DNA of 64,000 nt from Chitinophaga cymbidii (lineage in GTDB: Bacteria; Bacteroidota; Bacteroidia; Chitinophagales; Chitinophagaceae): contig NZ_BKAU01000001.1 of the NCBI RefSeq assembly GCF_007992715.1, forward strand, positions 930,001-994,000, given 5' to 3'. Below the pieces are notes generated by a model. That model worked only from the letters and a program-made list of their open reading frames with translations. It did no database searches and was not told where the DNA came from. Below are positions 27,987-55,100 of the stretch, piece after piece. A program made the position numbers and the translations under genes. How positions within the stretch are numbered: the first letter of the stretch is position 1; each line of letters opens with the position of its first letter.

Positions 27987-27995
27987 CTGTGAGGT

Positions 27996-34193: not shown

Positions 34194-34227
34194 AATTAAG
34201 TTGGGAAATGATGCAAAGTGCCGCCTG

Positions 34228-34668
34228 TCAGCGGTGAGAACTGCCTTTCATTTGTTTCCATAAGCCCAACCGCAGCTTTACAATATTCACCATCGTGTTT
34301 ACATTGTTGTTGATAGCCTGCGCCTGTGGAATATAGCTTTTGTCCTTCCGCACTTTCTCAATGCTCTCGTTCAGCACTTGCATCAGTTGATCGCCCACAC
34401 TTAACTGACTTTCCATGATCCGTTGCAATTCGGTGGGCGGATGCTGTGAGTGCTCCATTCTGTTTACTCTGTCGAAAGGTTCCCAGTAAGATAAAAATGC
34501 CGTTACTGCTTCTATTTTTCGCTCGAAAAGATTCAGATTGGTTTGGATGGTACACTTATCCTGCTCTTCATCTAGCACGCAGCGCTGTATGAAATGGATC
34601 TGTCCGGCGTACAGAAAAGTCTTTCCTTCCAATTGTTTTAATTGTGCGCTAATTTTCTTGTTGTCCAT
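34228..34668 (-). CDS. Unknown helical protein
   Basis: 146 residues, nearly all helical with coiled-coil-like stretches (MDNKKISAQLKQLEGKTFLYAG, VGDQLMQVLNESIEKVRKD). Its start overlaps the stop of the HNH-like gene by 20 bp, indicating translational coupling. No family recognised. Cytosolic. Confidence 0.6.
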   Translation of the reverse strand: MDNKKISAQLKQLEGKTFLYAGQIHFIQRCVLDEEQDKCTIQTNLNLFERKIEAVTAFLSYWEPFDRVNRMEHSQHPPTELQRIMESQLSVGDQLMQVLNESIEKVRKDKSYIPQAQAINNNVNTMVNIVKLRLGLWKQMKGSSHR

Positions 34669-35491: not shown

Positions 35492-35570
35492 TGATATAAA
35501 TAATCTGGGTGATAAATAATAAGTGAGGGATAGATGCAATAAGAAAGATGTGCAGGATGGAACGCGCGTG

Positions 35571-36236: not shown

Positions 36237-36247
36237 GATAGTAATTT

Positions 36248-36838
36248 TTAACGCATGGAAACGATAGGAGCAATAGCGTAGAACAGATCAGTCATTTGCT
36301 CCCCGTATTGTGCCAGGGTGTCGATCGTACCTTTTTTTACGTTGACAGTTTCTTTCGCTTCGATCAATACAGCCAGATCAGCCTCCGGTATTCCTTCCGC
36401 ATTTTGCAGGGCATCAGAGATCACCTCAATATGTTTTTTTAGAATTTCCTGGTTGAACAGATATTCCGTATCACTTTCAATGACACCCGGAAAATTTTCA
36501 GCAATGATTGTCGCGACATCGTCTGTCATTTTAGGATAGCGATCCTGTATACTGACTGTCACATCACCCAATTTAAAAGAGCCAATATTTCTGCCCTGTT
36601 TTTTGTATTCCTCTAAATAGAGATCACGGGCTTTGTCCTTAATAAAGCCTTCTTCAATACTCAATTTTGCATCCCAGTTTTTACATTGTGATTTTGCTTC
36701 TACATAAGCTTTCACGTGCTTCTCCAACTCCGGGGTAATTGTCAGTGATATGACTTTACTTTTGGTTTCTTTGACTGGAGTAGTTTTTTTTGCGGATGTA
36801 AAAAGATTGGCTTTTACGGTAGTTTTACTTTTTTGCAT
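36248..36838 (-). CDS. Unknown element protein
   Basis: 196 residues. A basic, Lys/Thr-rich N-terminal tail (1-28) precedes a mainly helical domain with a central beta segment (IGSFKLGDVTVSIQDRYPKM). No enzyme motif is visible. It lies directly upstream of the ligase-like gene, 11 bp apart, so it may be its partner. Not recognised. Confidence 0.6.
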   Translation of the reverse strand: MQKSKTTVKANLFTSAKKTTPVKETKSKVISLTITPELEKHVKAYVEAKSQCKNWDAKLSIEEGFIKDKARDLYLEEYKKQGRNIGSFKLGDVTVSIQDRYPKMTDDVATIIAENFPGVIESDTEYLFNQEILKKHIEVISDALQNAEGIPEADLAVLIEAKETVNVKKGTIDTLAQYGEQMTDLFYAIAPIVSMR

Positions 36839-36865
36839 GACAAAATTTTTAAAGTTTGAAAAAAG

Positions 36866-36980
36866 CTACCCGCTACTTATGGCTCAGGGCATAAAGTCCT
36901 AGTCCTCTATTGAGAAAAGCGCGCATTGCTCGTGAATGTAATGATGTGACTAGGCGAGTAAGCCGGGAGGTAGCGGGTAG
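36866..36980. repeat. Nested inverted repeat between parB and the ligase unit
   Basis: Outer arms CTACCCGCTAC (36866-36876) and GTAGCGGGTAG (36970-36980) are perfect. Inner arms CCTAGTC (36898-36904) and GACTAGG (36948-36954) are also perfect. Likely a structured RNA leader, attenuator or terminator-like element between two minus-strand units. Confidence 0.6.
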
Positions 36981-37011
36981 ATATAAAAAGGGGGAAGTGT
37001 ATAGAATGCGA

Positions 37012-38808
37012 TCAGGAAGCCATTTTCTTGACAGGTGTGTCTATCTTTTTGCGGGTTTTGTTTTCTTTTTTGGCAAGATCAGCTTTCATTTCTTTCAGTA
37101 TGGCTGTTTCCTGGCTCCTGCGCAGTTGCCGTTTTTTCGCGATTTCTGCTTGTTCCTGTTCAAAATCAGCGATGGGGATTACCCCTAAGCTTTCAGCCAT
37201 CTGGCGGAACATATACCCGCCTTTTGTATTAGGAAGGTTAAAGCTGTACTTATGAATCATTATTTGCCGAATAAGATAAGTGATCTGCGGTTTCGTTAAG
37301 GTCAGCAGTGCATGGCCGAATTTTTCAGGACTGGCGATATCTTCTAAACCCGCTTTACGAAGTGCTTTCCTGACTTGTCGCTGCCCTTCATAGTTGAGGC
37401 TTTCAAACAGCAGGAATAAAGTAAGCAGATTGTCTGATTTCCCAGCTCTTGTGGGAATGGCCTGAAGCGATTTATCTTCTTTCACCTGCTGAACGATCTT
37501 TTTATGAATTTTTTCCTGATCGAGTTCCACGGCTCTAATTTCTCGCTGTTGGATCTCCTTTATACGTGCTGCTACGTCTTCCACGGTAGGATTCCCTTGC
37601 TCAATAGCCTTTTTGGTGACTTTTTTTGTTTTTTCCTTAGACGTCAATTCGACATAAATATACCTGCCGGTATCCCGGTCATTATGGGAGTATAGTACCA
37701 ACGCTTTTTTGAATTTTCCTATAGCGATATTATCCTCGAAGGTTTTCATTTCTTTTTCGAAATTCGCTTCGGCATCTTTGAACATTTTCTTTATTACGGT
37801 AACTTTTTCTCCTTTCATGTTATTTTGGAAGGACTTCCAATCCGGCGCTTTCGGTGGTGTTATTTTTCGGCAATCATCGCCATATCCCAATTTCAGTAGC
37901 TCCACCCCCTCTTCTTTCATGTGGTTTACCATTTCCGGCACGCCGTAGCCATCGTAAACCAGTACGGTGGTGGGGTCGTTTAACACTTTTTCTGTTTCCC
38001 CTTTCAGGTAAAGCGATGTCTTATTCTTTAAACAAGCGACATGATTACAGTGTGGGTATTTTTGATCTTCAGGAAAAAGGGAAGCGGTGGCGGAATTAAA
38101 AGGACATCCCATGCACGATCCTGCCTTTTTATCCAGTTCCGCGTCGTTGAGGTCAAAAACCACCCTAGTGAGGTCTCCCTTGTATTTATTGATCGTATGA
38201 TGGGTGATAGAGATCTGCGGATTTGCTTTTCTGGCCTCATCTTTATCTACCTGGTTCTTGTAAAGCTCTTTCTGTGCCTCTGCTGGCAGAGTGCAGATAA
38301 GCAGGGCAGTACTAATAAATATTCCGTTTTTCAGAAAGAGCGTTTGCCATTGCTCTGTAAGATCATTGAGTTTTAGCTGCTGGCGGACAAAATGCGGCGT
38401 TTTACCAATGGAGTGGGCGATGTCCTCCGTTTTCATTTGTCGTTCATCAATGAGAAATCGAAAGCCTAGAGCTTGTTGCATGGGATGTATATCCTGGCGC
38501 TGGATGTTCTCGATAAGCTGAATGACCTTTACTTCTTCATCGGTGATGTCCGCATTTTTGATGATAGAACGGATCTCTTTGAATTCAAGTTGCAGTGCTG
38601 CTCTGTAACGCCTTTCACCAAAGATGATCCTGTAACCGTTTTCAAATGGTTTTAGCATGATAGGTTGCAGCATACCAATTGTTTTGATGGATGCTGCCAA
38701 CTCATTAATTTCTTCAAAAGTCCGTCGCGGTTGGTTGGGATCTGAAGAAATTTTGTCAACCGGTACCAGCACACCATTCCCAGTTGCTGGTTGCATTGTT
38801 ACTTCCAT
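37012..38808 (-). CDS. parB: ParB-family protein with Cys cluster
   Basis: 598 residues, about twice a chromosomal ParB. The N-terminal ParB/CTPase domain has GERRYRAAL (64-72) and ENIQRQDIHPM (100-110). An HTH follows (KTEDIAHSIGKTPHFVRQQLKL, 126-147). A four-cysteine cluster C232, C235, C254, C259 then suggests a zinc-binding insert. The long C-terminus is Lys-rich and helical. Such proteins spread on DNA from a parS-like site and aid partition or element regulation. No ParA gene is seen in the window. Function in the element is inferred. Confidence 0.85.
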   Translation of the reverse strand: MEVTMQPATGNGVLVPVDKISSDPNQPRRTFEEINELAASIKTIGMLQPIMLKPFENGYRIIFGERRYRAALQLEFKEIRSIIKNADITDEEVKVIQLIENIQRQDIHPMQQALGFRFLIDERQMKTEDIAHSIGKTPHFVRQQLKLNDLTEQWQTLFLKNGIFISTALLICTLPAEAQKELYKNQVDKDEARKANPQISITHHTINKYKGDLTRVVFDLNDAELDKKAGSCMGCPFNSATASLFPEDQKYPHCNHVACLKNKTSLYLKGETEKVLNDPTTVLVYDGYGVPEMVNHMKEEGVELLKLGYGDDCRKITPPKAPDWKSFQNNMKGEKVTVIKKMFKDAEANFEKEMKTFEDNIAIGKFKKALVLYSHNDRDTGRYIYVELTSKEKTKKVTKKAIEQGNPTVEDVAARIKEIQQREIRAVELDQEKIHKKIVQQVKEDKSLQAIPTRAGKSDNLLTLFLLFESLNYEGQRQVRKALRKAGLEDIASPEKFGHALLTLTKPQITYLIRQIMIHKYSFNLPNTKGGYMFRQMAESLGVIPIADFEQEQAEIAKKRQLRRSQETAILKEMKADLAKKENKTRKKIDTPVKKMAS

Positions 38809-38837
38809 TTTTGTCGTGTTTAATTGTTAAGAAATAT

Positions 38838-39398
38838 TCAAAAATCAAATGAGGCTTGTTGTGTGGGGGATGTGGAGCTACGCCCCACTTTAGGAGTTTC
38901 TTTGATTTCTTTTGTTGTTATGCTCATTTTTTGTTTAAGCAACTCCCGTCTTTTTTTGTAGATGAATTGTCGCAGCCGGTTAAGTGCGTGCTGTAGCCAT
39001 TCTGTAAGCTCTCGGGGTGCTTTTACTTCATTCCAGTGATCTTCCATAAAAAGGTTCTCCAGTGTCCGGCAACTCAAATGCGTATAGATATCCACCCAAT
39101 CGCTATTCATCGGGGCTTCAAGGGTTCTTGTATAGAGATAAATCACGCACTCTACATCGGTGGCTGATTGTTGTTTTTTCATGAGTGCAATCATTCTTGC
39201 CATGGAAACCTGCGCCAGTAGCCTTTGTGGTATTGTATCAGCCCATAGCTGGCTAAATGTGAGAACCGGCGCGGTAAGGGCGTCCATTATATCAAAGATG
39301 TAATTACCTTCCTGTTTCCGTTTCTCATTTTTTACTACAGGAGCCTGATCCGTTCCAAATAGCTTGGGTTGACCAGTTTTGCTGTTCGTCCTTTTCAT
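38838..39398 (-). CDS. Unknown helical protein
   Basis: 186 residues. Basic N-terminal tail, helical centre (LTFSQLWADTIPQRLLAQVSMARMIALMKKQQ), Lys-rich helix and a Ser/Thr-rich end finishing ASFDF. The last residues FDF recall short terminal binding tips, but this is not proof. It starts 29 bp upstream of parB's start side, in the same orientation and probably the same transcript. No family recognised. Confidence 0.55.
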   Translation of the reverse strand: MKRTNSKTGQPKLFGTDQAPVVKNEKRKQEGNYIFDIMDALTAPVLTFSQLWADTIPQRLLAQVSMARMIALMKKQQSATDVECVIYLYTRTLEAPMNSDWVDIYTHLSCRTLENLFMEDHWNEVKAPRELTEWLQHALNRLRQFIYKKRRELLKQKMSITTKEIKETPKVGRSSTSPTQQASFDF

Positions 39399-39515
39399 AA
39401 TAAGCTAGCTTTATCATTATTAAGTTGACAAGAGTGATTCTTGTAGCCGGAATTCGCATTAGAAAGAGTAGATAGGTTAACTATATAAAATGTCAGGAAC
39501 TAGGAATATGATTTT

Positions 39516-39893
39516 TTAGATATAGTATGGGTGTTTTATTTTTTTCAATTCAAGAATTGATTGTTCATCCCAGTTTTTCATTCCTCTTTCAAGTTTGTCC
39601 AGGTATTTATATATAATGTCCTTGTCTTCAGGAAAGAGCATACCTGTTTGTATATCGGTTACAAATGTCAACTCTCTTTTAACAATTATTAATTCAACTG
39701 AAGGGGGCAGAGTGCCATATTTACGGATCAACTGTTCTAAATATATTCTAGCTTCCTGAAGGCCCAATTTGGAAAACTGATTAGTATAAGAAGTCATTAT
39801 ACCGTACGGCTTTGCCGGTAACGGAAAGTATTTTCTTTCTTTACTAGCGTACACTTCATATAGATTATACGTACGGAATTTCATTTCATACAA
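39516..39893 (-). CDS. Unknown protein
   Basis: 125 residues; an alternative start MKFRTYN lies three codons in. Mixed alpha/beta, no membrane segment or enzyme motif visible. Same strand as its neighbours, 117 bp before the next gene. Not recognised. Confidence 0.5.
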   Translation of the reverse strand: MYEMKFRTYNLYEVYASKERKYFPLPAKPYGIMTSYTNQFSKLGLQEARIYLEQLIRKYGTLPPSVELIIVKRELTFVTDIQTGMLFPEDKDIIYKYLDKLERGMKNWDEQSILELKKIKHPYYI

Positions 39894-39942
39894 TTTGATG
39901 AGTTAAACAATTGGGTTTCTCGTTATATGATTCAGGGTTATG

Positions 39943-40782
39943 TCAGGCGAAGAACTCATTAACCTTATCCAATATCTGTTTTGCTTCCAGGGCTTTTTTG
40001 CTACGCAACAGATCGTCATTCCGGAGCAGTTCAGGATCGATTAGCAGATGCTTCATGCTTTCGATGGTTTCCATTACATTTTCATCCTGTGTAAAATTCA
40101 GACGGGGCAGGATGTCTATGAGTTCACTTATGTTGGCTACCAGGCTGTCCCGGAAGATCGCTTTCTGTTCTGACAGTTTCTCGACCATATGCCCAACCGC
40201 TTCCCTGATCCTTACCCAGATGTTTCTGGTAGCCTGTGAGATTCTGGTATTGAGCTCTGTTTCAATCTGGTGTTTAAGTACAGAGATCTCCTTCTGGTCT
40301 ATTTCCAGTCTGAAATCCGTCGTGTCGGAAATGGTCATAAAACTGATCTGGATAGCAAACTTGGTTCTGACATCGGAGATGGGGGGATAGTCGCTTTCCT
40401 GGAACATGCCATTCAGCCGCTGCCGGGCATCTTCCTTTAAGTGAGGATACTGTGTAATAAAGCTGTCTACCGCACTATGGAACTGATATTTGAAGTCGTT
40501 GTACTTAGCGATAAACTCGAAATAGTTTGTTGCCGGAAGCAGTCGATCGCCGTTGTCCCCCCATGGCAGGGTGTTCTCGTATAGAAAGCTACGGGCGGCG
40601 CCGGCAATCTTTTGGATTTCCTTTAATTCATTTTCTGCTATCAGGATCTTATTGAAGCGGCCGGCGTTGCGGGTATTGTGCGCTTCCTCTATTTTCTGTG
40701 ACACCTTGCGGTCATACTTACGCGCACACCATTGGCTTATGGTCAGGTTGACCAGCAAGGCTTTTTCTGGTAAACTTTTCAT
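39943..40782 (-). CDS. DUF3150-like protein of a MoxR/VWA module
   Basis: 279 residues, almost fully helical. It lies just after the VWA gene (27-bp gap), which follows the MoxR ATPase gene. In proteobacterial integrative elements a DUF3150 gene accompanies CobS-like (MoxR) and CobT-like (VWA) genes; order, size and helical nature agree, but the sequence match itself is not certain. ISQWCARKYDRKVSQKIEEAHNTRNAGRFNK near the N-terminus is the most conserved-looking part. Function unknown. Confidence 0.5.
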   Translation of the reverse strand: MKSLPEKALLVNLTISQWCARKYDRKVSQKIEEAHNTRNAGRFNKILIAENELKEIQKIAGAARSFLYENTLPWGDNGDRLLPATNYFEFIAKYNDFKYQFHSAVDSFITQYPHLKEDARQRLNGMFQESDYPPISDVRTKFAIQISFMTISDTTDFRLEIDQKEISVLKHQIETELNTRISQATRNIWVRIREAVGHMVEKLSEQKAIFRDSLVANISELIDILPRLNFTQDENVMETIESMKHLLIDPELLRNDDLLRSKKALEAKQILDKVNEFFA

Positions 40783-40809
40783 GATGAAGGATGTTGGTGA
40801 TAAAATATG

Positions 40810-41913
40810 TTAGGTGATCTGTATGGTTTCCCCAAAGGGAGGAATAAAGGTGGCTTTTCCGAACTGGGCCCAAAGCACGGGATATTCCGGTTCGGAAGGA
40901 AAACGGCGACATTCACCGTCTGTCAGGTACACTGCTACTTTGGGTTGCAGGTCGTTTTCTTCGATATAGGTGAAGCCGGGACGGAAATCTGTCCCCCCGC
41001 CGCCATAAGGGTTTAACTGAATGGGGGTGTCGGGTTCTATTTCCTGTACTCCCTGTACAATGGTGTCTACATAAATGATCTGTAAAGAAAGGTTAAACGT
41101 TGTAGCGATATCCTGCGCTTCAGCTGCGAATTGATTCAGTAAAGTGCGATTAATACTGCCGGAAGTATCTACCAGCAATATGACCTTACCCGTCTCCAGT
41201 GCTTCCAGCGCTGGAAGGTATAAATCACAATGGATATGACGGGGAGAAGGCTTTTTCCATGTATAGTCATTACGATTCGTTTCACTTAAAAATCTTGACA
41301 GCACTTCCTGCCATGCTATACGTGGACGTAGCAGATCTTCAATAAGCCTTTGAACAAAGGCGGGCAATTTTCCCTGTCGTTTCGCTATCATGGCTGATTG
41401 CACAAGAGCCTGTTTGACCTCGGATTCAGTTTCCTGCATAGTCGTACCTGTAAGCAGGGTGTCTTCTACATCGCCGGTGCCTCCATTATTGTTACCTGAA
41501 GCATCCATTTGTTCCTCCGGCACTGGTAGCAGGTTATATACTTGTTCGGCGCTCATATTCCTGTATATGGCATTCGTTAAATATCCCTTTGGTAATTGAA
41601 AACCTGCGTCGATCAGTAAAGGATTGATAGCGTAATCGCAAGCGTGATTCCACTTTACTTTGTCCCTGTGTCCCCTGCGTGTATGGTGCAACATGGCGGT
41701 ATGCATGACTTCATGCGCGATCATACCCTTTAGTTCTTCCAAAGTCAGCTGCTCAATATAAGCGGGGTTGTATTTGATATACTTGCCATTGGTGGTAGCG
41801 GTAGATTGCGTGGTATCAGGCAGGAATTGCATTCTTTGCGCAAGTGAAGCAAAGAAGGGCTGCACCAGGATGAGCTGTACCTTCGCTTTGATTATTTTTT
41901 CAGAAGCATTCAT
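40810..41913 (-). CDS. DUF2201-type metallopeptidase-VWA protein
   Basis: 367 residues from MNASEKII at 41913; an upstream start at 41946 would overlap the MoxR gene. The N-terminal half has a zinc-peptidase motif HEVMHTAMLHH (HExxH at 67-71). The C-terminal half is a von Willebrand A-like domain with MIDAS DTSGS in VILLVDTSGSINRT and a second metal-site loop LTDGECR. The MoxR-VWA pairing is known for assembling or remodelling metal-dependent complexes. Here the peptidase motif is intact, so it may be active. Confidence 0.85.
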   Translation of the reverse strand: MNASEKIIKAKVQLILVQPFFASLAQRMQFLPDTTQSTATTNGKYIKYNPAYIEQLTLEELKGMIAHEVMHTAMLHHTRRGHRDKVKWNHACDYAINPLLIDAGFQLPKGYLTNAIYRNMSAEQVYNLLPVPEEQMDASGNNNGGTGDVEDTLLTGTTMQETESEVKQALVQSAMIAKRQGKLPAFVQRLIEDLLRPRIAWQEVLSRFLSETNRNDYTWKKPSPRHIHCDLYLPALEALETGKVILLVDTSGSINRTLLNQFAAEAQDIATTFNLSLQIIYVDTIVQGVQEIEPDTPIQLNPYGGGGTDFRPGFTYIEENDLQPKVAVYLTDGECRRFPSEPEYPVLWAQFGKATFIPPFGETIQIT

Positions 41914-41923
41914 AACATGGCGT

Positions 41924-42925
41924 TTAGATAAGTATACCCGCTGCACTGCTGGCTTCCCATTCGATGAATGCCCGGTTATTACAGATGCTGCTGTTTCTGG
42001 TAACCGCGTCTTTCATGCAGGATACGGAATTCTCAACCGGAAGGCGATCCAGGTACATACAGATGGCGTCTATATTCTGGTCTGTCATTTTGTGGGCGAG
42101 TGCGCTGGAAATAGCGAATAATGCTCCCGGTTCTGTCGGTACGGGGGCGCCGGTAGGGTTCAGGACGATCTCCTCCAGTGAGGGTAGTTGCCGGTATAAC
42201 TTCAGAAATGCCCGATACTCAATGGCGAAAGCTTCTCCGGCGGCCCCTTTAAAGGCTTCAAACTCGAATTTTTCCGGAAGCCCTGCGGTTATTTGCTTTC
42301 CGACGAACGCTATTGTTCGTGGTGTGGGTGAGTTCCGGATTTCTTTAGTGGGTTCAAAATTGTCCAGCAATTCCGGCCGGAAGCGGACAAAGGCGATCAG
42401 CTCAGTCGGCATATGGTGTGCCAGGGCCCATTTTACCCAATCGTCCGTGTCCACTTCCAATTCCACGATTGCAGCGAAGCGGGATTTCACGGGTTCCAAT
42501 AGGCCACTGACGGCGGCTTTGTCCTCCCTGCGGTTGGTAGCGGCGATAAAGGTCACCTGGTCGCTGATCTGGTGTCCATTGATCTGGCGGGCCAGTAATA
42601 ATTGCATGCAGGCGGCCTGTACACTGGCAGGGGCTTGACCCAGGTCATCGAGAAAAAATACTGTCTTCTTTTGAGCAGTGATGATCTGATGGAGCTCGCC
42701 GTAGGGAAGAAAATCAGCTGTGCCGTTCTTTGTAGGAAAGGGCAGTCCCTTGTAGTCGGTAGGATCACTAACGACCGGGTGTGAAATGATCAATTCCGCC
42801 TCTGCTGCGATAGCCGCTTGCGTTGCGATATCGGATTTACCGATACCAGGTTTTCCGGTGATCAGTACCGGGAAATTGTTTCTGATAGCGAATTGGAGAT
42901 ATTCGCTTAAATCCTTTGGTTTCAT
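41924..42925 (-). CDS. MoxR-type AAA+ ATPase
   Basis: 333 residues. Walker A GKPGIGKS (24-31), Walker B TVFFLDDLGQAP (88-99), sensor-1 TFIAATNRRED and the GLLEPVKSRF arginine region. MoxR/CobS-like AAA+ proteins form rings that act on VWA proteins, here the one encoded 10 bp downstream. Short compared with McrB-type GTPases. First gene of the MoxR-VWA-DUF3150-like trio. Confidence 0.9.
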   Translation of the reverse strand: MKPKDLSEYLQFAIRNNFPVLITGKPGIGKSDIATQAAIAAEAELIISHPVVSDPTDYKGLPFPTKNGTADFLPYGELHQIITAQKKTVFFLDDLGQAPASVQAACMQLLLARQINGHQISDQVTFIAATNRREDKAAVSGLLEPVKSRFAAIVELEVDTDDWVKWALAHHMPTELIAFVRFRPELLDNFEPTKEIRNSPTPRTIAFVGKQITAGLPEKFEFEAFKGAAGEAFAIEYRAFLKLYRQLPSLEEIVLNPTGAPVPTEPGALFAISSALAHKMTDQNIDAICMYLDRLPVENSVSCMKDAVTRNSSICNNRAFIEWEASSAAGILI

Positions 42926-42991: not shown

Positions 42992-43492
42992 TTACTTCCT
43001 GACGAGTTTCTTCAACCGGGTTCTAATAGTGCCACTATCCGGAATAAGCCCCATATCTTTCATAGACACATATTCTTGACCACAGACAATGATGTGCTCG
43101 ATCAAGTTTATATTTAGAAGGCCACAACCGTAGGATAAACCTTTTGTTAGTTCTATATCTTCTTTGCTGGGAGTAGGTGCGCAGCTTGGATGATTATGAG
43201 AAATAATAATATTGCAGGCCATACATTTTGCACAAAGTGAAAACAGGATTCTTTTATCTACTAATACCTGGTTCATACTTCCTATTGATAGGCTATGATA
43301 TCCTATCAGTCGTAGTTGGCTATCTAAAAAAAGAACCTTAAAGTCTTCTTTGATATATTTTTCATCTCCCCAAATTTTGAACAGAACTTCAGCTACAACA
43401 TCAGCGGATTTGAGTTGTACACGTTTATTGGGAGATACTTTGGGCTGATAGGATAGCTTTATTTCAGCTATTGCACGATGAATACTTTTCAT
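42992..43492 (-). CDS. RadC-family JAMM domain protein
   Basis: 166 residues, lacking the N-terminal HhH part of long RadC proteins. JAB1/MPN metal site: Glu in KEDFKVLFLD (49), SHNHPSCAPTPSKED with H99, H101 and D112. Such short RadC-like proteins are frequent in Bacteroidota mobile elements; enzymatic role unproven. The frame is open upstream of the ATG at 43492 for about 55 codons with no start codon, so the ATG is taken as start. Confidence 0.88.
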   Translation of the reverse strand: MKSIHRAIAEIKLSYQPKVSPNKRVQLKSADVVAEVLFKIWGDEKYIKEDFKVLFLDSQLRLIGYHSLSIGSMNQVLVDKRILFSLCAKCMACNIIISHNHPSCAPTPSKEDIELTKGLSYGCGLLNINLIEHIIVCGQEYVSMKDMGLIPDSGTIRTRLKKLVRK

Positions 43493-43847: not shown

Positions 43848-43942
43848 GATGAAATTGTTTGAGGTAAATAAATATTGATATGTTCAGGTGCTATGTCCTC
43901 GTTACATCTCGTTCTGTAATCTTTTTCCCATCGCTACATGGC

Positions 43943-44187
43943 GGGTACGCATGTAAAAGGAAAGGCCCCAAAAACAGCGGCGCACAGCCCGATATATCCA
44001 AACACTAATGATGGCCTTTGTGAGCGACAAAAAAAATAGCACACATCGTTGTTGTGCGCTATTTTTTTTGTCGCGTGTGGGAAAATGAAAAGAGGCGCAT
44101 CGTTCATGCGCCTCTTTTCATTTCGTGTTAGTGTTTGGATATTTCGGGCAGCCGCTACTTTCGCCCTTTCCTTTTACATGCGTACCC
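43943..44187. repeat. 245-bp compound palindrome with two inner hairpins
   Basis: The outer arms 43943-43965 and 44165-44187 are 23 bp and perfect. Next come AGCGGC (43976-43981) with GCCGCT (44151-44156), then 22-bp arms 43987-44008 and 44128-44149 with one mismatch. These enclose two hairpins: 44024-44045 with 44053-44074 (22 bp, one mismatch, includes A8/T8) and 44085-44100 with 44106-44121 (16 bp perfect, 5-nt loop). The inner hairpins with T-rich flanks read as bidirectional terminators. The whole separates the transfer operon from the maintenance block. Confidence 0.85.
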
Positions 44188-44215
44188 ACCATTTAGGGAA
44201 TTTTTTTTAATCGTT

Positions 44216-45307
44216 TTAGCTTTTAATTCCTCCCTTTCTTTTGATATCCACTATAACCGTTTTCCCTTGGGATTTTTGAATCAATTGTGCTGCTCTTTCA
44301 ATTTGCTTTTTTGATTGCGCTTGCAGAGCTGAAAGCGCTACCAGCTGGTTGTTCTGGGACAGAACACGAATGTCCTTTTCTTTTGGCACCGCAACGATCT
44401 TATGTGTTTCGGGCTGACCGTTTATAAGCAGCTTTACTTCTTTTGCAGCGCCGGAAAGCAATGTATTATACAGATTCTTATACTCTACATCCCTCATTTT
44501 TTGGGGTAAGGGCATTGCTTTTAAGGCAGCGTCCATGTCGAAAGCCACGGATTTAAATGGTGAGTTGGGATCAGTTTTATCCAGGATGGTCCAATCGGTT
44601 CCGTTCTTGCTCACCCCTCTTCCATTAAGCAATTGAGCAGCCTCGGCTGCGGAAAAACGTGATCCCGTTGTTAGGGAAAATTGCTGCCAATAGTGCTTTT
44701 CAGCTGTCCTTTCTACTATGTTAGTGATTCTTTTTGCCGCGTCGAATCGTTCAAACTGGTAGCAGCCTGTTTGTGGGATCAGGTTGAAGTGTAGTATATA
44801 GTCTGTTTGAGGTTGCCGGATATCGGCATAGCGGATATGGAACCTGGGTAATCCTTGGGCAATAGATTTCTCCAGTATCTGTGAAACATCCTGTGTAAAA
44901 CCGGCTACATGCATGTTTCGACTGAGTACCTTAAAGTTTTCTTGTATGCCAATTTGGTTTTGGAATGAATGTAACATCGCCTCGTTACGTTGCACTCCTA
45001 CCAGGCGACCTAGAAGGAAATTATGCAACCAGCGGCGGATGCGCCCATATTGCAGGCTATTTCTAAAAGAAGGCCGCGCCAGCACCGTTAACCGCCTGAT
45101 CTCATGGAGTAAAAACTTTCGTGTTGATTTTTCCGCTCTGTTAAGCCGGCGGTTATTTTGCTGAAGAAGGTCCTGATAAAATTGCTTTTTTAAATGAATC
45201 GCTTGTATATCGTCCCGGCTGCCGAATGGATTATTGATCCGGTACTGGATTTCTTGTTCCGCATAGAGGTAAATGGCCTCCTGAAGTCGGTTATTTGCCG
45301 GTTGCAT
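44216..45307 (-). CDS. Unknown protein at the end of the transfer operon
   Basis: 363 residues, basic, no membrane segment. The middle part (FSLTTGSRFSAAEAAQLLNGRGVSKN, VAFDMDAALKAMPLPQKMRDVEYKNLYNTLLSGAAKEV) resembles the repeated units of DUF3945/DUF4099-type Bacteroidota mobile proteins. That match is tentative. Last gene of the operon; starts 5 bp after traN's stop and is followed by the compound palindrome. Confidence 0.55.
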   Translation of the reverse strand: MQPANNRLQEAIYLYAEQEIQYRINNPFGSRDDIQAIHLKKQFYQDLLQQNNRRLNRAEKSTRKFLLHEIRRLTVLARPSFRNSLQYGRIRRWLHNFLLGRLVGVQRNEAMLHSFQNQIGIQENFKVLSRNMHVAGFTQDVSQILEKSIAQGLPRFHIRYADIRQPQTDYILHFNLIPQTGCYQFERFDAAKRITNIVERTAEKHYWQQFSLTTGSRFSAAEAAQLLNGRGVSKNGTDWTILDKTDPNSPFKSVAFDMDAALKAMPLPQKMRDVEYKNLYNTLLSGAAKEVKLLINGQPETHKIVAVPKEKDIRVLSQNNQLVALSALQAQSKKQIERAAQLIQKSQGKTVIVDIKRKGGIKS

Positions 45308-45312: not shown

Positions 45313-46143
45313 TCAGAGCGGTGTTGCCTTAAAAAGATCTTTATTTCGGATAGTAACAGCGATGCGGCGCCCTCCGTTTTCTTCCTGAAGTTCAAACGTT
45401 AGCTTTTTTTTATCCGGAACGGCTACCTGGGAAATAATGATATAATAGTCCAGTGAGGCTCTTCCCTCTATTTTTGGTAATTGATCCCAGTATATCGGTT
45501 GAACGGGAATCTGTTGTATGGAGGAACGACGGGTAATTTTTTTATCATGAATGCATAGGTTAGTCCAGTTCGCCCGGTAAGGAAGGGATGAATGGTTCCT
45601 GATATGAAACCGCAGTAACATCAGTTCATTTCGTATGTAAACACCTTGTAATGCTACCTGCATTTTAAACCTGGTGCTTTGCCGTGATTTTCTAGCTTTT
45701 TCTCCGGAGGCATCGGATATGAATTGTTGTAATTGCTGCTCGTTGATCCCGTCGCTGAAAACGGTGGGAACCAGCACGTCAGTGCGGTTACCGGGAAGAA
45801 GATAATAGGTTTGTGTTGCCGGCGCGGTGCTAAAGAAGACGTTAAAGGTATGTATTTTACCATCTTTCGTGAAAATATGTAGGCTGGTAGGCGGCATATG
45901 AATAGAATGCGCTTTTAGCTTAATAATATTTTCAGCTTCCGGAATCTTTTCCATCAGCAGCTCTGCGGATCCACAGTCTCCATCCCGAACTGGGAAAGGG
46001 AAAGCGATAACGGTAGTCGCGAGGTTTGTCACTTCAATTTTGTGAGCAGAGCCGGCAATCAATTTGGCGGGTAGCTCATGGGACTGCGCATAGGAGTAGC
46101 AGGTCCAGCAACATACAAGTAAACTTAACAGCACTGTTCTCAT
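45313..46143 (-). CDS. traN: TraN-type conjugation protein (DUF4138)
   Basis: 276 residues with a signal peptide (MRTVLLSLLVCCWTCYSYAQS). The mature part is beta-rich (KIEVTNLATTVIAFPFPVRDGD, LLRFHIRNHSSLPYRANWTNLCIHDKK), matching TraN/DUF4138, a VirB9-like outer-membrane component of Bacteroidota type IV transfer systems. It follows traM by 17 bp, the usual order. Confidence 0.85.
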   Translation of the reverse strand: MRTVLLSLLVCCWTCYSYAQSHELPAKLIAGSAHKIEVTNLATTVIAFPFPVRDGDCGSAELLMEKIPEAENIIKLKAHSIHMPPTSLHIFTKDGKIHTFNVFFSTAPATQTYYLLPGNRTDVLVPTVFSDGINEQQLQQFISDASGEKARKSRQSTRFKMQVALQGVYIRNELMLLRFHIRNHSSLPYRANWTNLCIHDKKITRRSSIQQIPVQPIYWDQLPKIEGRASLDYYIIISQVAVPDKKKLTFELQEENGGRRIAVTIRNKDLFKATPL

Positions 46144-46160
46144 AAAACGATATTTTAATA

Positions 46161-47309
46161 TTATTGAAGGAATACTTTGTGGCCGGCCTTGACCGTCACT
46201 TTCATTTGTTTGACTTTCTTACTGAGGAGGGATTTAAGGCTTTGGATACCCGCGGAGGTTGCCTGTGCAGCCACGGAGGGGTCGATGGTGGTCATGGAAA
46301 GTGACTGTACGGCTCTGCTCAAACCCTCTTTAGCAGCATCTCTGGTGATGGCGCCCGGCACATAAATGCCGGCGATACCATCGGTATCATAGGCCATCAG
46401 TTGAATGGAGAGCAGGGAATTGTTATGAATGATCTTATCCAGGTCAATCAGTAATCTCTCATTGGAGATAGCGCAGGTGCCGTATATAAAACTGCCCGCG
46501 GGGATTTCCTGTTGCCCGACATAGATGGTTTCCGCCAGCCGGAGCTTGATCGTTGATCCGTTATAAATAGTCTGGTCCTCATGTACTACAGCCTGGATAG
46601 CTGTTTTATACCTGGTGAGGGCTACTGGCGGCCGTTTCAATCCATAAAAGCCCGAAATGGAAGGATGGAAATCAGCGTGGCCCTGGACAGGTAAAGAGGC
46701 GGTGGTATCCGTGGCCTTTCTGTTGGGGGTGGCAGGGTGGTTGATCATGATAATCTTATCCAGCATGGATTCCAGGCGTTTCATTTCCTTGTCTTCGGTG
46801 GTATCCGATTGCAGCGTTGCCATCAGTTGCTCTAACCTGACGATTTCAGGGGATGTTTCTTGTAATGGTGATCTGTATTCACTTTCCGGCAGTTGATCTT
46901 TGCCGGTATCATTCAGCTCCTCCAGAATCTTGCTGAGCTGTTCATTTACTCTTTTCTCCTGCACATCCAGTTGCCTGGTCCGGGAAGTGCGGGAAGGTAC
47001 GTCATCGGGGAAGTCAGGTGGATTGGACGCGGGATCAATGAGCTGATGGTCGTTTTGTCCTTTGAGTCTGCCCAATTTATGGATAGAGTCCGCCTGAAAA
47101 TCCATGTAGGCTTCCAGTTTGGTTTTCTTCTCTTCTTTTAAATGCGGATTCGGCAACGTTGTATTCAGGCGGCTTACACTGTCTGTCGCGGCTGCATCTC
47201 CTCCGCCACTACGCTGCCATTTGGAGATCAGCAGGTAAAGTACAAGAAGGCTTATGGCAAATAATGGCCACAATACCAGTGATCGCTGGCGTATCAAATT
47301 CATTTTCAT
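46161..47309 (-). CDS. traM: TraM-type conjugation protein
   Basis: 382 residues. A short cytosolic tail, one membrane helix (LVLWPLFAISLLVLYLLISKW, 11-32), a long charged periplasmic linker and a C-terminal beta domain (IYNGSTIKLRLAETIYVGQQEIPAGSFIYGTC). This VirB10-like layout is that of CTnDOT TraM. It overlaps traL by 101 bp in another frame. Traces of an energy-linked channel part lie in the C-terminal domain. Confidence 0.88.
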   Translation of the reverse strand: MKMNLIRQRSLVLWPLFAISLLVLYLLISKWQRSGGGDAAATDSVSRLNTTLPNPHLKEEKKTKLEAYMDFQADSIHKLGRLKGQNDHQLIDPASNPPDFPDDVPSRTSRTRQLDVQEKRVNEQLSKILEELNDTGKDQLPESEYRSPLQETSPEIVRLEQLMATLQSDTTEDKEMKRLESMLDKIIMINHPATPNRKATDTTASLPVQGHADFHPSISGFYGLKRPPVALTRYKTAIQAVVHEDQTIYNGSTIKLRLAETIYVGQQEIPAGSFIYGTCAISNERLLIDLDKIIHNNSLLSIQLMAYDTDGIAGIYVPGAITRDAAKEGLSRAVQSLSMTTIDPSVAAQATSAGIQSLKSLLSKKVKQMKVTVKAGHKVFLQ

Positions 47310-47613
47310 ATCTATATGATTTATTTATTTTAATTATATCACCTGAAATACTATCCTGTTTATGTTTCCACTGGCGGTATTTGCGGATCATGAGAATATC
47401 CAGGCTATCGGGTAATGTGATATTCTGGGGGATGATGAGTGGTTGATGAGGATGTAGTTGCCGGCGTTGATGGGAAGACCGGGTCGTTAAGTGATAGAGG
47501 TTGAAAACTTGTAGCACAGTGATCAGGATACAAATCGTGCATAAGAGCCATACTTGCTGCCGGCGGGCACGTAGTTTTCCCCCCTTTTTTTTGGGCATCC
47601 CGTTCATGATCAT
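47209..47613 (-). CDS. Small TraL-position membrane protein
   Basis: 134 residues; MNGMPKKKGGKLRARRQQ two codons in is also possible. Basic tail, then one membrane helix (VWLLCTICILITVLQVFNLY), then a periplasmic part. Position between traK and traM and topology fit TraL, though the sequence is divergent. The last 34 codons overlap traM in another frame; an earlier stop could have been lost by a frameshift. Start overlaps traK's stop by 4 bp. Confidence 0.6.
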   Translation of the reverse strand: MIMNGMPKKKGGKLRARRQQVWLLCTICILITVLQVFNLYHLTTRSSHQRRQLHPHQPLIIPQNITLPDSLDILMIRKYRQWKHKQDSISGDIIKINKSYRYENEFDTPAITGIVAIICHKPSCTLPADLQMAA

Positions 47614-48227
47614 CTTTTTGAAGTGCTGATATCAGTATTTTCCAGTACCCGCCATCGTTCAATCATCAATCCATGCGGGTTATTGTCGCTGGGTTGCGTC
47701 ATCCGGATATAGCCTTCTGTAACCAATGTCCTAATGGTGATAGTGGTTGCTCTGACAATGCGCTGCTTGCCAGTATACCGGAAATACCAGGGTGTTTTAT
47801 CAAGGTTGACCTCAATATGTTCACATTCAATTTCCTGGCTGATATTGGCTGATATGAGGGAAGAGTAATAGCCGCTTTCCCGCAGGTTTTTGTATTCATT
47901 AGTAGCTGAATGATCGGCCAGGTACAATGCTTTATTGATATTCTTTTTAATAACGGCATCGTCAGGATGAAGGGTGAAAAAATAGTGGTGAAAGGTTTTT
48001 ACGTGATCTTTCGTTTCAATGGGCCAGTATTTACCTCTTTCCTCTGCAAAGGCTTCAAACAATTTTCCATTAGCAATGATGAATACGCTGTTATCCTTTT
48101 CCCTGATAATTTCCTGGTAAAACCAGACGGTAAATACGGAAAACAGCACGCTGCAAATGATAGCGACAATGGCAACTATGCGTGAAAGTTTAAAAGCGGA
48201 TTCAATATTTCTGAATTGTTGGAACAT
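47610..48227 (-). CDS. traK: TraK-type conjugation protein
   Basis: 205 residues. One membrane helix near the N-terminus (IVAIVAIICSVLFSVFTVWFYQ, 17-38) and a VirB8-like periplasmic domain with FHHYFFTLHPDD and the TTITIRTLVTEGYIRMTQPSDNNPHGLMIERW C-terminus typical of Bacteroidota TraK. It overlaps traL by 4 bp and follows traJ by 11 bp. Confidence 0.92.
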   Translation of the reverse strand: MFQQFRNIESAFKLSRIVAIVAIICSVLFSVFTVWFYQEIIREKDNSVFIIANGKLFEAFAEERGKYWPIETKDHVKTFHHYFFTLHPDDAVIKKNINKALYLADHSATNEYKNLRESGYYSSLISANISQEIECEHIEVNLDKTPWYFRYTGKQRIVRATTITIRTLVTEGYIRMTQPSDNNPHGLMIERWRVLENTDISTSKR

Positions 48228-48238
48228 ACATGGAGCAT

Positions 48239-49462
48239 TTAAGACTTGCCAGAAAGTTTATTGTAATTGTAGCCCCCTTCTGCATGATAGGGCTCTGAAC
48301 TCGCAGCATCTGCCATGGAACTGGAATACATATCATTCCCGTAGGTAGAATGGCTCATACTTCCTGCGCCGGCACTGGAAGCGCCTGTTGAACCACCGGC
48401 GGCTCCCGCTGCTGCTATATTGACGCTGGTAAGTGCCAGGCTATTGACTTTTGCTACGATCGCATTGCCGCCAGCGGCATGTACTATATAATTGGCGATA
48501 CTGGGGATGCAGAAGTAACTTACGACGCCAACTACCAGGAAGACCAGGTAAATGACATCTGTCTGTCCAAAGCTGGATACATGCCCCTGCTGAAGATCTG
48601 CCAGGTCTAATTGCAGCATTCCTTCCTGGATTTTATTAAGCATGGCGCCGAGTAGGTTGGCGATGGGTAACCATAGATAAATGTTTATATAACGGGCAAT
48701 CCAAATAGGCAGGATGTGATGAAATCCGTCGTAGATGGACAGGCACAGCACAAAGGGGCCCAGAATGGATAATAACAGCAGAATAAATGTCCGTATGGCA
48801 TCTATACAGATTGCCGCGGCGAAGTAGAGCAGCTGCAGGAGAAATGAGAAAATCAGTTTGGTAAGGACGTTCAGGCTGTTGGTAACAATAGATAGAGAGA
48901 AGGATAAAGCGCGACCAAGGGTTAAGCCTTCTGGCTTATCCTCTTCCTGTTCATATTTTCGCCAGTCTTCCTGGTTCCCGTGAAGTCCTACTAAATCTTG
49001 CCATTCTTCACTGTTGGTAATAGCCTCCTCTCTGTCTTTTAGTAGCATCTGAACAGGGTTACCTGATCTCATTACCATTGCTTCCGTGGCCATTACAGTG
49101 GGCGATAGAATGCCGTTCATAATACCCAACACATAGGGATAGAGCGTAATGATGGTAGCGATGACCAGCGGCCTGAGCAGAGAAAAAAAATCAATAGGTT
49201 CTGCTGCCGCCAGTGATTTCCAAACCCTGTACCCGATGTACCACAATGCGCCGAATGCCCCGATCGCCTGCGCGATGGTCAAAAGATCCTTTGATAGCGG
49301 CAGCATGTCCCTATACAGTGCATCCAGGAGATACTGAAACTTCTTCATTTCTCCGGAAAATATCTGGCACTTTGCTGTCAGAGGCGCCCCGACCAGCATG
49401 ATGCATAACTGAAAGACGATAAACTTTGCTCTATTCATCACTATTTCATTTTTCCATTTCAA
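48239..49462 (-). CDS. traJ: TraJ-type conjugation membrane protein
   Basis: 407 residues; MNRAKF eight codons in (49438) is an alternative start. A signal-like N-terminus is followed by at least six membrane helices between about 50 and 340, a conserved central acidic part (LTNSEEWQDLVGLHG region) and a low-complexity Gly/Ala/Ser tail. VirB6-like channel component, as in CTnDOT TraJ. It overlaps the previous gene's stop by 17 bp if the upstream start is used. Confidence 0.88.
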   Translation of the reverse strand: MKWKNEIVMNRAKFIVFQLCIMLVGAPLTAKCQIFSGEMKKFQYLLDALYRDMLPLSKDLLTIAQAIGAFGALWYIGYRVWKSLAAAEPIDFFSLLRPLVIATIITLYPYVLGIMNGILSPTVMATEAMVMRSGNPVQMLLKDREEAITNSEEWQDLVGLHGNQEDWRKYEQEEDKPEGLTLGRALSFSLSIVTNSLNVLTKLIFSFLLQLLYFAAAICIDAIRTFILLLLSILGPFVLCLSIYDGFHHILPIWIARYINIYLWLPIANLLGAMLNKIQEGMLQLDLADLQQGHVSSFGQTDVIYLVFLVVGVVSYFCIPSIANYIVHAAGGNAIVAKVNSLALTSVNIAAAGAAGGSTGASSAGAGSMSHSTYGNDMYSSSMADAASSEPYHAEGGYNYNKLSGKS

Positions 49463-50102
49463 AATATTCCTGAAGCGATTGATACTGACTTTTCGCTTTG
49501 TTGCGCTGCGCAGCCAACAGCGTTATCTTTTGCTGGAAATAATTGGAGAAGTCAACTTTACGTTTCATATCGTCATATATCCGGTCAATGGCGGAAAGTC
49601 GTTCTGCATCATTCATCCGTAGCTGGTTAGCGGTGATCACCATCAGCAGGGCATCCAGGTTGTTTAAAGAACCCTCGATCAGCCTAGCGTATACTTCTTC
49701 CAAATACCGCAGTTCACCTTCCTTAAAGAGTTGATCGATCGTGTAACGCCTAAGTGCTTCTTTGGAATGCCGCAATAGCTGCTGTTGCAGGGAAACAATG
49801 TCCACCACCCGTTTGTATTTCTTTACCGTAGGGCTGACGCTTAATAGCCCATCCAGGAACGTCTTGTGTAGCGAAAAATTCCCCTCTGAAAGGTCTTTGA
49901 TCGTGTTGTAGCCCGTTGATAATATGGTATACCCTTTGTACATCTGTTCCAGCAGGCTCTTTAGCTGGTTCAGCTTTTGGATATTCAGCATCAACTGCTG
50001 GATTTCAGCAGACTGGGCTTTTGCTGTTTTGAACCCGACAAGAAAAACGAAGGCGACGGTAATTCCTACCAGGGAAGGCACTTTGAGCATAACACACTTC
50101 AT
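49446..50102 (-). CDS. Exported TerB-annotated-type transfer protein, copy 2
   Basis: 218 residues with an export signal (VPSLVGITVAFVFLVGFKTAKAQS). Coiled-coil-rich mature part. It shares the pattern KGYxIxxxGxxTIxxLxEGxFxLHxxFxDxxxxVxPxVxxY and LRMNDAERLSxIDxIYxxMxxK with the gene directly upstream, so the two are tandem paralogues. Similar genes stand at this place in many Bacteroidota transfer operons and are often labelled TerB family, without evidence of tellurite resistance. Periplasmic VirB5-like role is possible. Confidence 0.6.
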   Translation of the reverse strand: MKCVMLKVPSLVGITVAFVFLVGFKTAKAQSAEIQQLMLNIQKLNQLKSLLEQMYKGYTILSTGYNTIKDLSEGNFSLHKTFLDGLLSVSPTVKKYKRVVDIVSLQQQLLRHSKEALRRYTIDQLFKEGELRYLEEVYARLIEGSLNNLDALLMVITANQLRMNDAERLSAIDRIYDDMKRKVDFSNYFQQKITLLAAQRNKAKSQYQSLQEYFEMEK

Positions 50103-50746
50103 TAATCGTGAACAGTATGCAGTTGACGTAAGGATTCGAGGCTGGTGTAGACCCCGCGTTTTTGGTGGGACAAGAGGTGAGATTGGTTAACAATGCGAGA
50201 TAACCACTCCTTTTTGTTCATGATACCGGTATAGATGTGCTCAATCCTGCTTAGTCTTTCGGTATCGTTCATACGGAGTATGTTGTCAGTAAGTACGTCC
50301 GCTATTAGCGTCGCATCATCTTTTAGATACAAAAGCATATTATCCAGTTGTCCGGTAATAGCCATTCTGTCGGCGGAGGAAATAAAGGTTTGGCCGTAAA
50401 GGAATTCCCGGAACGTTTTCACCTTTTGCTGTATCAGCATAATTTCCGCTACACATTGTAGAGAAGGTGTATGTTTTCTGATAACTTGCTTTACGTAATA
50501 TTGATCTGAAAAGAATAAATGATGCAAGTTAAAATCCCCTTCCTTCAGCTTTCCGATAGTATACAGTCCTTTATTGACAATATCATAACCCTTCTTAGTA
50601 TATTCCAGCAATAGCTGAAGCTTTATGATCTGCCTGGTGAGATATTTTCTTTCTGTTTTATTTTGGTTAAATATGGACTGCGCATCGCAGGTAGCTACTA
50701 CTACCGTCAAGCTGATTGCGAGCCATATGTATGCAAATCGTTTCAT
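50102..50746 (-). CDS. Exported transfer protein, copy 1 of tandem pair
   Basis: 214 residues, export signal at the N-terminus (YIWLAISLTVVVATCDAQS). Helical mature part with GYDIVNKGLYTIGKLKEGDFNLHHLFFSDQYYV and ILRMNDTERLSRIEHIYTGIMNKK, matching the next gene's corresponding parts. One-base stop/start contact (50102) with the next gene. Likely periplasmic component of the transfer channel, by position. Confidence 0.6.
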   Translation of the reverse strand: MKRFAYIWLAISLTVVVATCDAQSIFNQNKTERKYLTRQIIKLQLLLEYTKKGYDIVNKGLYTIGKLKEGDFNLHHLFFSDQYYVKQVIRKHTPSLQCVAEIMLIQQKVKTFREFLYGQTFISSADRMAITGQLDNMLLYLKDDATLIADVLTDNILRMNDTERLSRIEHIYTGIMNKKEWLSRIVNQSHLLSHQKRGVYTSLESLRQLHTVHD

Positions 50747-51576
50747 AATTTTCTTTTATGATTCTTTGTCTGGCTGTTCTCCCGTTGCAACTGTGCTAGT
50801 ATCTTGACAGCGGGGCGTTTCTTAACTTCTTCTAAGAGGTATTTGTGGATGTCGTTGGCTGGAGGAATGGGATAACGGGGTGTTCCGATAAAAGTTTTGG
50901 ATATAGAATCAATTTCTGCATGAACAGACTTGATATGCAGATCTTCGGAAGAAGGATGATAGTAATAATGCAGCCGGTAGTGCATGGTTTCCGCAGGTAT
51001 ATCCGTTTGCAGTTTCCCTTTTACGATAAAGTCATGTTTTTTGCCGGTATCCTTTCCCGATTTTCCAATTTCTGCATAGAATTTTCTGGTAAGAGAAGCG
51101 TCATTATATCCACATTCTTTCAGGAGACTTAATTCCGCTTCAATCATGTCCCGCATTCTGTTCTCCGTATCTTCCCTGACCGTACTACGGATCGTATCGC
51201 TTAGTAGCTTCACTCGTTGATAAAGTTCTTTTGCATTCCATACGTCGCTTCCCTGTTCGATGGGTACGGACAGCGGGATGCCATTAAACAATGCTTCTAC
51301 TTCTTTCAGGGATAATTGGGATAAAAAGGCATCATACTGGTAGCGGAAGGTGAACAGCACAATATCCTTTTTCTGGTTAAAGAACCCGAATGTATGGAAG
51401 GTCACAGGTTCTGTATCAAGCAATGTCATGTCCTTATCCAGCAAGTTGTTGATTTCCGTTTTGAGGTATTCTTTATAAGCGCCATCCGGTTCTCCGTTCT
51501 GCAGGCCATTTTCATGATAGCCATTCCATTTCAGCAGCAAAGCCTGTTCTTCTATGATAGCATCCAATTCTTTCAT
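50743..51576 (-). CDS. Unknown protein within the transfer operon
   Basis: 277 residues from MKELDAII at 51576; the start at 51597 overlaps the previous gene more. Soluble, charged, no signal peptide. ALLLKWNGYHENGLQN and LSLLKECGYNDASLTRKFY look like two copies of one motif (K-x-x-G-Y-x-[DE]-x-x-L), suggesting an internal duplication. Stop overlaps the next start by 4 bp. No family recognised. Confidence 0.5.
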   Translation of the reverse strand: MKELDAIIEEQALLLKWNGYHENGLQNGEPDGAYKEYLKTEINNLLDKDMTLLDTEPVTFHTFGFFNQKKDIVLFTFRYQYDAFLSQLSLKEVEALFNGIPLSVPIEQGSDVWNAKELYQRVKLLSDTIRSTVREDTENRMRDMIEAELSLLKECGYNDASLTRKFYAEIGKSGKDTGKKHDFIVKGKLQTDIPAETMHYRLHYYYHPSSEDLHIKSVHAEIDSISKTFIGTPRYPIPPANDIHKYLLEEVKKRPAVKILAQLQRENSQTKNHKRKL

Positions 51577-52253: not shown

Positions 52254-52278
52254 AGATTTAAATTTTGTGAGTTCACTG

Positions 52279-55090: not shown

Positions 55091-55100
55091 AGAACAACGA

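Follow-up and report, generated by a model that had tools for sequence, protein, structure and literature searches.

A compound palindrome ahead of the establishment genes of a Bacteroidota ICE as a probable single-stranded DNA promoter

Single-stranded promoters are already known from plasmid F and its relatives, and candidates have come from a few other groups. In Frpo, a hairpin on the incoming strand carries host promoter boxes in its stem; genes of the leading region are expressed early and are switched off once the second strand is made (PMC9849209; PMC11541004). For plasmid F, genes have been shown to be expressed from the single strand as it enters. A general description of Frpo also names plasmid F (PMC9024699). 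Samuel et al. (2024) predicted Frpo-like hairpin promoters upstream of leading-region anti-defence genes, including candidates outside the enterobacteria, from an insect metagenome and S. pneumoniae (PMC11541004). Another strongly folded regulatory sequence, EGeRS1 of the pLS20 plasmids, lies upstream of establishment genes; its authors argue against single-stranded DNA promoters there, as the transferred strand is not the template (PMC8708921). The sso of ICEBs1 is an ICE site that acts on the single strand and is described as an origin of replication (PMC4595007). No report of a single-stranded DNA promoter in Bacteroidota was found in the literature searched, which included few subscription papers and no preprints. 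Here we describe a compound palindrome in a Bacteroidota ICE that probably acts as a single-stranded DNA promoter and would drive the establishment (leading) block of that ICE.

The window, the whole 64-kb stretch of Chitinophaga cymbidii DNA that was analysed, holds most of an ICE of about 74 kb (Table 1). A 15-bp repeat of the tRNA end is found at about window coordinate 101430, beyond the window, as are the coupling protein and the relaxase (Pfam family PF03432) of the same ICE. From left to right, on the - strand, the order is DUF3085, Prim-Pol, HNH, ligase-like, ParB, DUF3150, VWA, AAA, RadC, the palindrome and the tra operon. We take the AAA ATPase to be MoxR-like and the DUF4138, DUF4133 and DUF4134 genes to be TraN, TraF and TraE. 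The last tra gene encodes P363, a protein without a Pfam or NCBIfam match; at E ≤ 1e-20, 71 of the 394 family genomes searched have it. Two further ICEs with these genes occur in the same genome, on contigs C5 and C7. An AbiH-like abortive infection gene lies within the ICE (window 58862-60073), and the genes adjoining attR (L028:13077-17177) encode PRTase_III-A-like and CARF6-like proteins by PADLOC models, perhaps a defence system.

Table 1. Features of the ICE and of the putative single-stranded DNA promoter. Positions are window coordinates unless a locus is named.
Feature	Position	Strand	Details
ICE left end: tRNA-Asp attachment site and tyrosine integrase	27684..29381	+	tRNA-Asp at 27684, integrase at 27996
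Remaining establishment-type block: AAA ATPase, VWA (DUF2201), DUF3150, ParB, ligase-like, HNH, Prim-Pol, DUF3085, unnamed genes	30608..42925	-	
RadC-domain gene, first gene downstream of the putative promoter	42992..43492	-	PF04002
Whole element in transferred-strand orientation, putative single-stranded DNA promoter	43931..44199	+	arms, RNA and DNA folds
Outer 5' arm, belongs to putative template arm	43931..43965	+	pairs with 44165-44199
Template-arm stretch facing the -7 box, GCCCCAAAAACAG	43965..43977	+	complement carries mirror copy TGTTTTTG
Inner (second) stem, 5' side	43987..44008	+	22 nt, 95% complementary to 44128..44149
Junction motif AATGATGGCC	44007..44016	+	loose form in 7/8 elements known at that stage
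Apical hairpin 1, bidirectional-terminator-like, A8/T8 tracts	44024..44074	.	44024-44045 / 44053-44074, 22 nt, 95%
Apical hairpin 2, bidirectional-terminator-like	44083..44123	.	44083-44100 / 44106-44123, 18 nt, 100%
Junction motif GTGTT	44125..44129	+	26 nt ahead of -7 box
Inner (second) stem, 3' side	44128..44149	+	22 nt, 95% complementary to 43987..44008
-33-like TTTG	44134..44137	+	18-nt spacer to -7 box
-7-like box TACTTTCG, then C	44156..44163	+	
Outer 3' arm, downstream portion of putative non-template arm	44165..44199	+	pairs with 43931-43965
P363 (363 aa), last tra-operon gene, marker for homologue search	44216..45307	-	
tra genes: TraM, TraK, TraJ, TraG (NCBIfam); DUF4138, DUF4133, DUF4134 (Pfam)	45313..55442	-	
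Putative oriT repeat and CATCTTG/C	L028:7965-7988, L029:8283-8306, L032:15456-15479	+ of each contig	same strand as promoter boxes

The original prediction, a 245-bp compound palindrome between a conjugation operon and a maintenance block, was borne out in both its structure and its placement. The tra operon occupies 44.2-57 kb and the RadC/AAA/VWA/ParB block lies on the other side, both on the - strand. The outer arms are 35 nt long and 91% complementary, with three mismatches, and contain a perfect 23-bp pair (43943-43965 / 44165-44187). The four-arm structure was far above chance on folding against shuffles. RNA fold energies were -143.6 kcal/mol for the + strand and -149.9 kcal/mol for the - strand, compared to shuffle means of about -64 (z = -19.7 and -19.3, respectively; 0/200 shuffles were equally good), and the DNA folds gave z = -15.1 (+) and -18.3 (-). 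The palindrome also ranked first by long-range pairs, with 51 compared to 36 for the runner-up, when the window was scanned for folds from 27.5 kb onward. The sequences that flank its outer ends differ from each other. A run of AATTTTTTT(G)TAATCG just beyond the outer 3' arm (window 44198-44214) is common to the window copy (C1) and to the C5 copy (L009). By eye, the apical loop words ATCGTT or ATCGTTCAT (window hairpins 44024-44123) recur in C1, C5, G060 and G841, and AAAGAAAGG or near forms recur in the template (5') arm past the mispaired box in most elements, in some folds with GAAA bulged out nearby.

A DNA search of the genome itself found one other copy, in C5, which is 77% alike and has the same gene setting; the other rows were palindrome self-matches or had E > 0.2. 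No copy was found in 58 other genomes at E ≤ 1e-4. The remaining homologues were found through P363, using 394 family genomes and 79 genus genomes, which are overlapping sets. This search gave 17 matches at E ≤ 1e-60, and further searches of 395, 10 and 2 genomes added none at that threshold. A compound palindrome of this kind, picked out by eye on the folds and not blind, was present in the folded flank of 15 of the 17 homologues: C1 (window), C5 and C7 of the present genome (G000), G220a, G220b, G060, G420, G142, G841, G027, G012, G868, G032, G848 and G850. G848 is nearly identical to C7 and G850 is identical to G848; dropping both leaves the 13 non-redundant elements counted below, each of which has one or two apical hairpins. 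Folding showed no such palindrome in the other two homologues, G243 (40 kb) and G172 (20 kb), and none was seen in the weaker P363 homologues G437, G123 and G339 (20 kb each). G243 has a strong multi-hairpin stretch downstream of its P363 gene (L101:9250-9720) without the box layout. G027 has a second, different compound palindrome with long outer arms about 2 kb downstream of the first (L207:15920-16300), with GACCTTAC at the possible box position by eye; this may be a degenerate second single-stranded DNA promoter.

The element lies within about 0.3 kb of P363 or the last tra gene in 11 of the 15 places, and at 0.9 kb from P363 in G868 and 1.7 kb in G032. In G420 and G142, it is 6 and 16 kb away from the tra operon and adjoins an ArdC gene. 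These positions, mainly the last two, suggest that the place of the element is tied to the block and not to where the tra operon ends. The genes downstream of it include leading-region or establishment types (RadC, ArdC, ParB, SSB, DUF932, methylase). Among ten neighbourhood proteins named with Pfam (from G420, G142, G032, G012, G027 and G868), ArdC occurs in three elements; G027 has DUF3560 and a helicase, G032 has DUF3560 and a C5 methylase, and SSB, DUF932 and ParB occur in G420, G012 and G868, respectively. The very first downstream gene is without a named family in several elements.

Other ways of searching for the element yielded little. A covariance model made from two sequences (R1) gave 23 rows in 18 of the 394 family genomes, and the six rows in G000, G060 and G220 were real; R1 is a poor detector, as C7, G220b, G420 and G142 were missed. 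The five other full-length R1 matches (L083, L084, L087, L090 and L091) were plain terminators on folding, and the remaining rows were partial matches. The pattern TAGCGGCTGCCC with one mismatch gave 23 to 67 matches per genome, in several genomes no higher than the reversed control. A ParB search of genome contigs kept 80 of 341 loci, 64 of which were fold-scanned over at most their first 13 kb. The known elements L110 and L111 were flagged by pair count and L109 by the energy list only, and the scan misses some known elements; within its range no new element was seen, with low-energy windows such as L132, L127 and L142 left out. A blastn search for distant matches against plasmids found only three Sinorhizobium records with a 30-bp match, and tblastn of P363 against plasmids found none. 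In viral contigs, work from a P363 alignment gave 141 pattern matches, none of which was confirmed. Three DNA-pattern scans of the viral contigs gave 0, 6 and 4 stretches, which are eight distinct loci; none folds into such a palindrome, and we take them to be chance matches.

The original prediction would have been refuted had the pairing not been conserved in homologues, and it is conserved. When the 3' arms of the 13 elements are lined up by their -7 boxes, identity between elements in the flanks (from -29 to -1 and from +12 to +35, with +8 to +11 and positions before -29 left out) is 41%, and pairing within elements is 94.6%. Out of 4134 pairwise comparisons, 431 were unpaired in at least one element. 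The 3703 that were paired in both comprised 2067 double changes, 85 single-sided changes and 1551 that were the same; the elements are related, and the comparisons are not independent.

The Bacteroidota promoter consensus is TTTG at -33 and TAnnTTTG at -7, although no -33 element could be made out in Flavobacterium johnsoniae (PMC7366714); the -7 form has also been published as TANNTTTGY (PMC8748976). A TAnnTTTG-like -7 box is found in the 3' arm of the block-antisense strand in 13/13 elements, a count that, like the fixed columns and the single site per arm, is partly by construction, since the box was chosen by eye with a loose pattern and not blind. The boxes are TACTTTCG in C1, TACCTTCG in C5 and G420, TATCTTAG in C7, TATTTTCG in G220a, GACATTCA in G220b, TACATTTG in G060, TATCTTCG in G142, GACCTTTG in G841, TACTTTTG in G027, TACTTTAG in G012, TATTTTTG in G868 and TAGCTTTG in G032. 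The strict form TAnnTTYG occurs in 9/13 arms compared to 0/13 mirror stretches, and the base after the box is C or T in 12/13, matching the published form. An exact TTTG lies 18-20 nt ahead of the box in 8/13 (C1, C7, G220a, G060, G841, G027, G012 and G868). The variants are TTAG in C5 and CTTG in G220b and G032, and G420 and G142 have no recognisable -33 element.

Summed over the 13 elements, the best match to TTTG-N18-20-TAnnTTTG was 112, compared to 96.5 +/- 2.5 in 500 shuffles (largest 105). The mirror stretches, though longer in places (77-179 nt compared to 85), summed to 95 and showed no promoter excess; those of C5 and G841 have one loose -7 site each. Only C7, G060, G027 and G868 reached p < 0.05 as single elements, and the best full score was no better than shuffles in G420 and G142 (7 of 10) and in G220b (6 of 10). 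In the window, the mirror arm carries TTTG-N22-TGTTTTTG, which agrees at 9/10 promoter positions and has A changed to G in the -7 box. By this match, a weak leftward promoter in the duplex is possible.

Mispairing at the -10 box is a feature of Frpo. In DNA folds of the transferred strand of the 13 elements, box positions 1-6 were 38.5% paired, compared to 94.6% for the flanks, with a mean unpaired probability of 0.43-0.85, and the sequence facing the box differs from the box in 13/13. A second dip, at -33 to -30 (29-64% paired), can be read as the junction at the top of the predicted stem. A test made on the folds only, which depends less on box picking than the motif counts do, counted 10 unpaired runs of at least 3 from -29 to +39. 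Nine of them, from nine elements, overlap the box. G060, G142, G841 and G868 lack any unpaired run of that length, and in the window copy the predicted bubble is split, with AC and CGC unpaired and the TTT between them paired.

A single-stranded promoter of this kind requires that the transferred strand be the template. A short inverted repeat followed by ACATCTTGC lies upstream of the relaxase genes and is common to C1, C5 and C7, that is, 3/3 ICEs of the genome; the probable oriT extents are L028:7963-7995, L029:8281-8313 and L032:15455-15480. In MOBP origins, (C/T)ATCCTG(C/T) directly follows an inverted repeat on its 5' side, and the relaxase stays on the 5' end of the cut (PMC3772185); a cut position after CCTG is also tabulated (PMC7755788). 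The putative nic, one base off the MOBP consensus, would lie between CATCTTG and C. By the MOBP rule and the orientation of this MOBP-like oriT, the + strand would therefore be the transferred strand, starting away from the relaxase gene; the + strand had been assumed from gene order and boxes before the oriT was looked for. In the circular form, the order of entry would thus be the attR-adjacent genes, integrase, block, element, tra operon and, last, the relaxase genes. The + strand would then be the template of the block, in these three ICEs, and the folded element would aim its promoter into the block. Reckoned from coordinates, about 27 kb of the strand would lie between the nick and the element, a greater distance than for Frpo2 in F.

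We propose the following mechanism. The + strand would be nicked at oriT and its 5' end would enter the recipient first. At the element, the incoming single strand would fold, with the 3' arm as the non-template strand and the 5' arm as the template. The 3' arm would supply TTTG at -33 and TACTTTCG at -7, and the -7 region, mispaired with the 5' arm, would be partly open. Host RNA polymerase carrying the primary sigma factor of Bacteroidota may bind the folded strand and start, leave the base of the stem and copy the incoming strand toward its 5' end through RadC, AAA, VWA and ParB. Transcription of the block would then precede second-strand synthesis, and the establishment genes would be on at once. 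RNA from the element may also prime the second strand. In the duplex state, the -7 box is altered in the leftward promoter copy and the apical hairpins are terminator-like in most members, and for these reasons the block would be little expressed from the element. A broader proposal, which we make tentatively and rate slightly below even, is that these elements are a class of single-strand switches in Bacteroidota. They would hold a sigma-ABfr promoter in one arm and an arm complementary to it except at the -7 box, and would be promoters only while single. In the single strand, the apical hairpins would serve as an A/T-rich upstream element; in the duplex they would be terminators, and the block would be on at entry and off after the second strand is made.

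An insulating role had been suggested for the palindrome, and it could separate the tra operon from the block as an insulator or bidirectional terminator in which the long arms do no more than stabilise the structure. This is unlikely as the main role. The two apical hairpins of the window copy have A8/T8 tracts, and the closeness to the last tra gene in 11/15 places is in line with termination. However, T and A runs of at least 6 occur in only 8/13 elements (in a fixed 130-nt apical stretch), and in G420 and G142 the element stays before ArdC, at 6 and 16 kb from tra. A terminator needs neither a promoter box at the mispaired place nor a 50-bp outer stem. Insulation may be a second role of the element.

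A structured RNA, either a riboregulator or an antiterminator, could be transcribed with the block or with the tra operon and have a role like that of EGeRS1 of pLS20. The conserved pairing, the unpaired junction motifs conserved in part of the members and the very stable RNA fold are consistent with this. However, G-U pairs are not enriched on the block-sense strand (66/1405 compared to 88/1446 on the other strand, 13 elements), which weakens the idea of an RNA; an early impression that they favoured the - strand did not hold over the 13 elements. Single-sided changes were few (85/3703), which is unusual for RNA helices. A structured RNA would also leave the promoter consensus in one arm unexplained. 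No Rfam match was above the gathering score, and the Rfam search of the 64-kb window returned only a tRNA. EGeRS1 resembles the element in being strongly folded and upstream of establishment genes; its transferred strand is the non-template strand and no promoter is seen in its fold (PMC8708921). Both are reversed in the ICE element, and the argument made from EGeRS1 against a single-stranded promoter would be turned around here by the putative oriT. We regard a structured RNA as quite unlikely.

The element could instead be a single-strand origin only, a landing site for second-strand synthesis with no role in gene expression. The same folded transferred strand would serve this purpose, and Frpo, too, is said to be a site of primer RNA synthesis, as in the title of Masai and Arai, 1997. 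A pure origin, which we consider very unlikely, leaves unexplained why the element always lies before the block in one orientation and why its sigma boxes point into the block. Among the earlier ideas, a transfer site comes closest to the preferred reading, in the form of a promoter on the transferred strand. An ordinary duplex promoter pointing right, with the palindrome incidental, is highly improbable: TTTG-N18-TACTTTCG on the + strand scores 9/10 and could fire antisense to tra, but the next gene to the right in the window runs the opposite way, and the compensatory arms and the mispaired box would be unexplained. The suggestion of a MITE-type non-autonomous element is rejected, since near-identical copies at unrelated sites were not found (the single other copy in the genome has the same gene setting, with none in the 58 others) and the arms of the homologues differ yet pair.

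The single-stranded promoter reading can be compared with plasmid F. Like Frpo1 and Frpo2 (ssi) of F and its relatives such as ColIb-P9, the element is non-coding, in the leading region and upstream of genes such as SSB. The annotation of the F leading region includes SSB, ParB, an antirestriction gene and DUF932, and similar gene types are near the ICE elements. Upstream of ssb in F, the strand opposite to the genes forms a long stem on folding, with an apical hairpin rich in A/T, as does the ICE element. Host promoter boxes are described as rebuilt in the stem of F Frpo (PMC9849209). In contrast to F Frpo, the boxes of the element are the Bacteroidota TTTG and TAnnTTTG, not TTGACA and TATAAT. 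The element is also ICE-borne, with one or two apical hairpins and, in part of the members, the junction motifs AATGANGGCC and GTGTT. The candidates of Samuel et al. (2024) likewise lie upstream of leading-region anti-defence genes as predicted hairpin promoters; unlike the present element, they were sought with the -35/-10 boxes of E. coli, and Bacteroidota go unmentioned in the main text (PMC11541004). The sso of ICEBs1 shares with the element that it is an ICE site acting on the single strand. When F was fold-scanned as a yardstick, neither the stretch upstream of ssb nor that near Frpo1 came first in the ranking by pair count. A blastn search against the F leading region gave only five matches of 14-21 bp (E 0.01-0.04). 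Since sequence similarity to F Frpo is lacking, the element would work like Frpo and not be its homologue.

If this is true, a version without similarity to F, with the Bacteroidota sigma consensus and carried by ICEs, would imply either repeated origins of the device or an age and spread greater than sequence searches reveal. It would also have a signature that can be searched for: a compound palindrome, placed before genes of the ArdC, ParB and SSB type, whose nicked strand carries a promoter box at a site of mispairing. The reading would also predict the first genes to be expressed when these ICEs reach a new host, a matter of relevance to how the ICEs overcome restriction.
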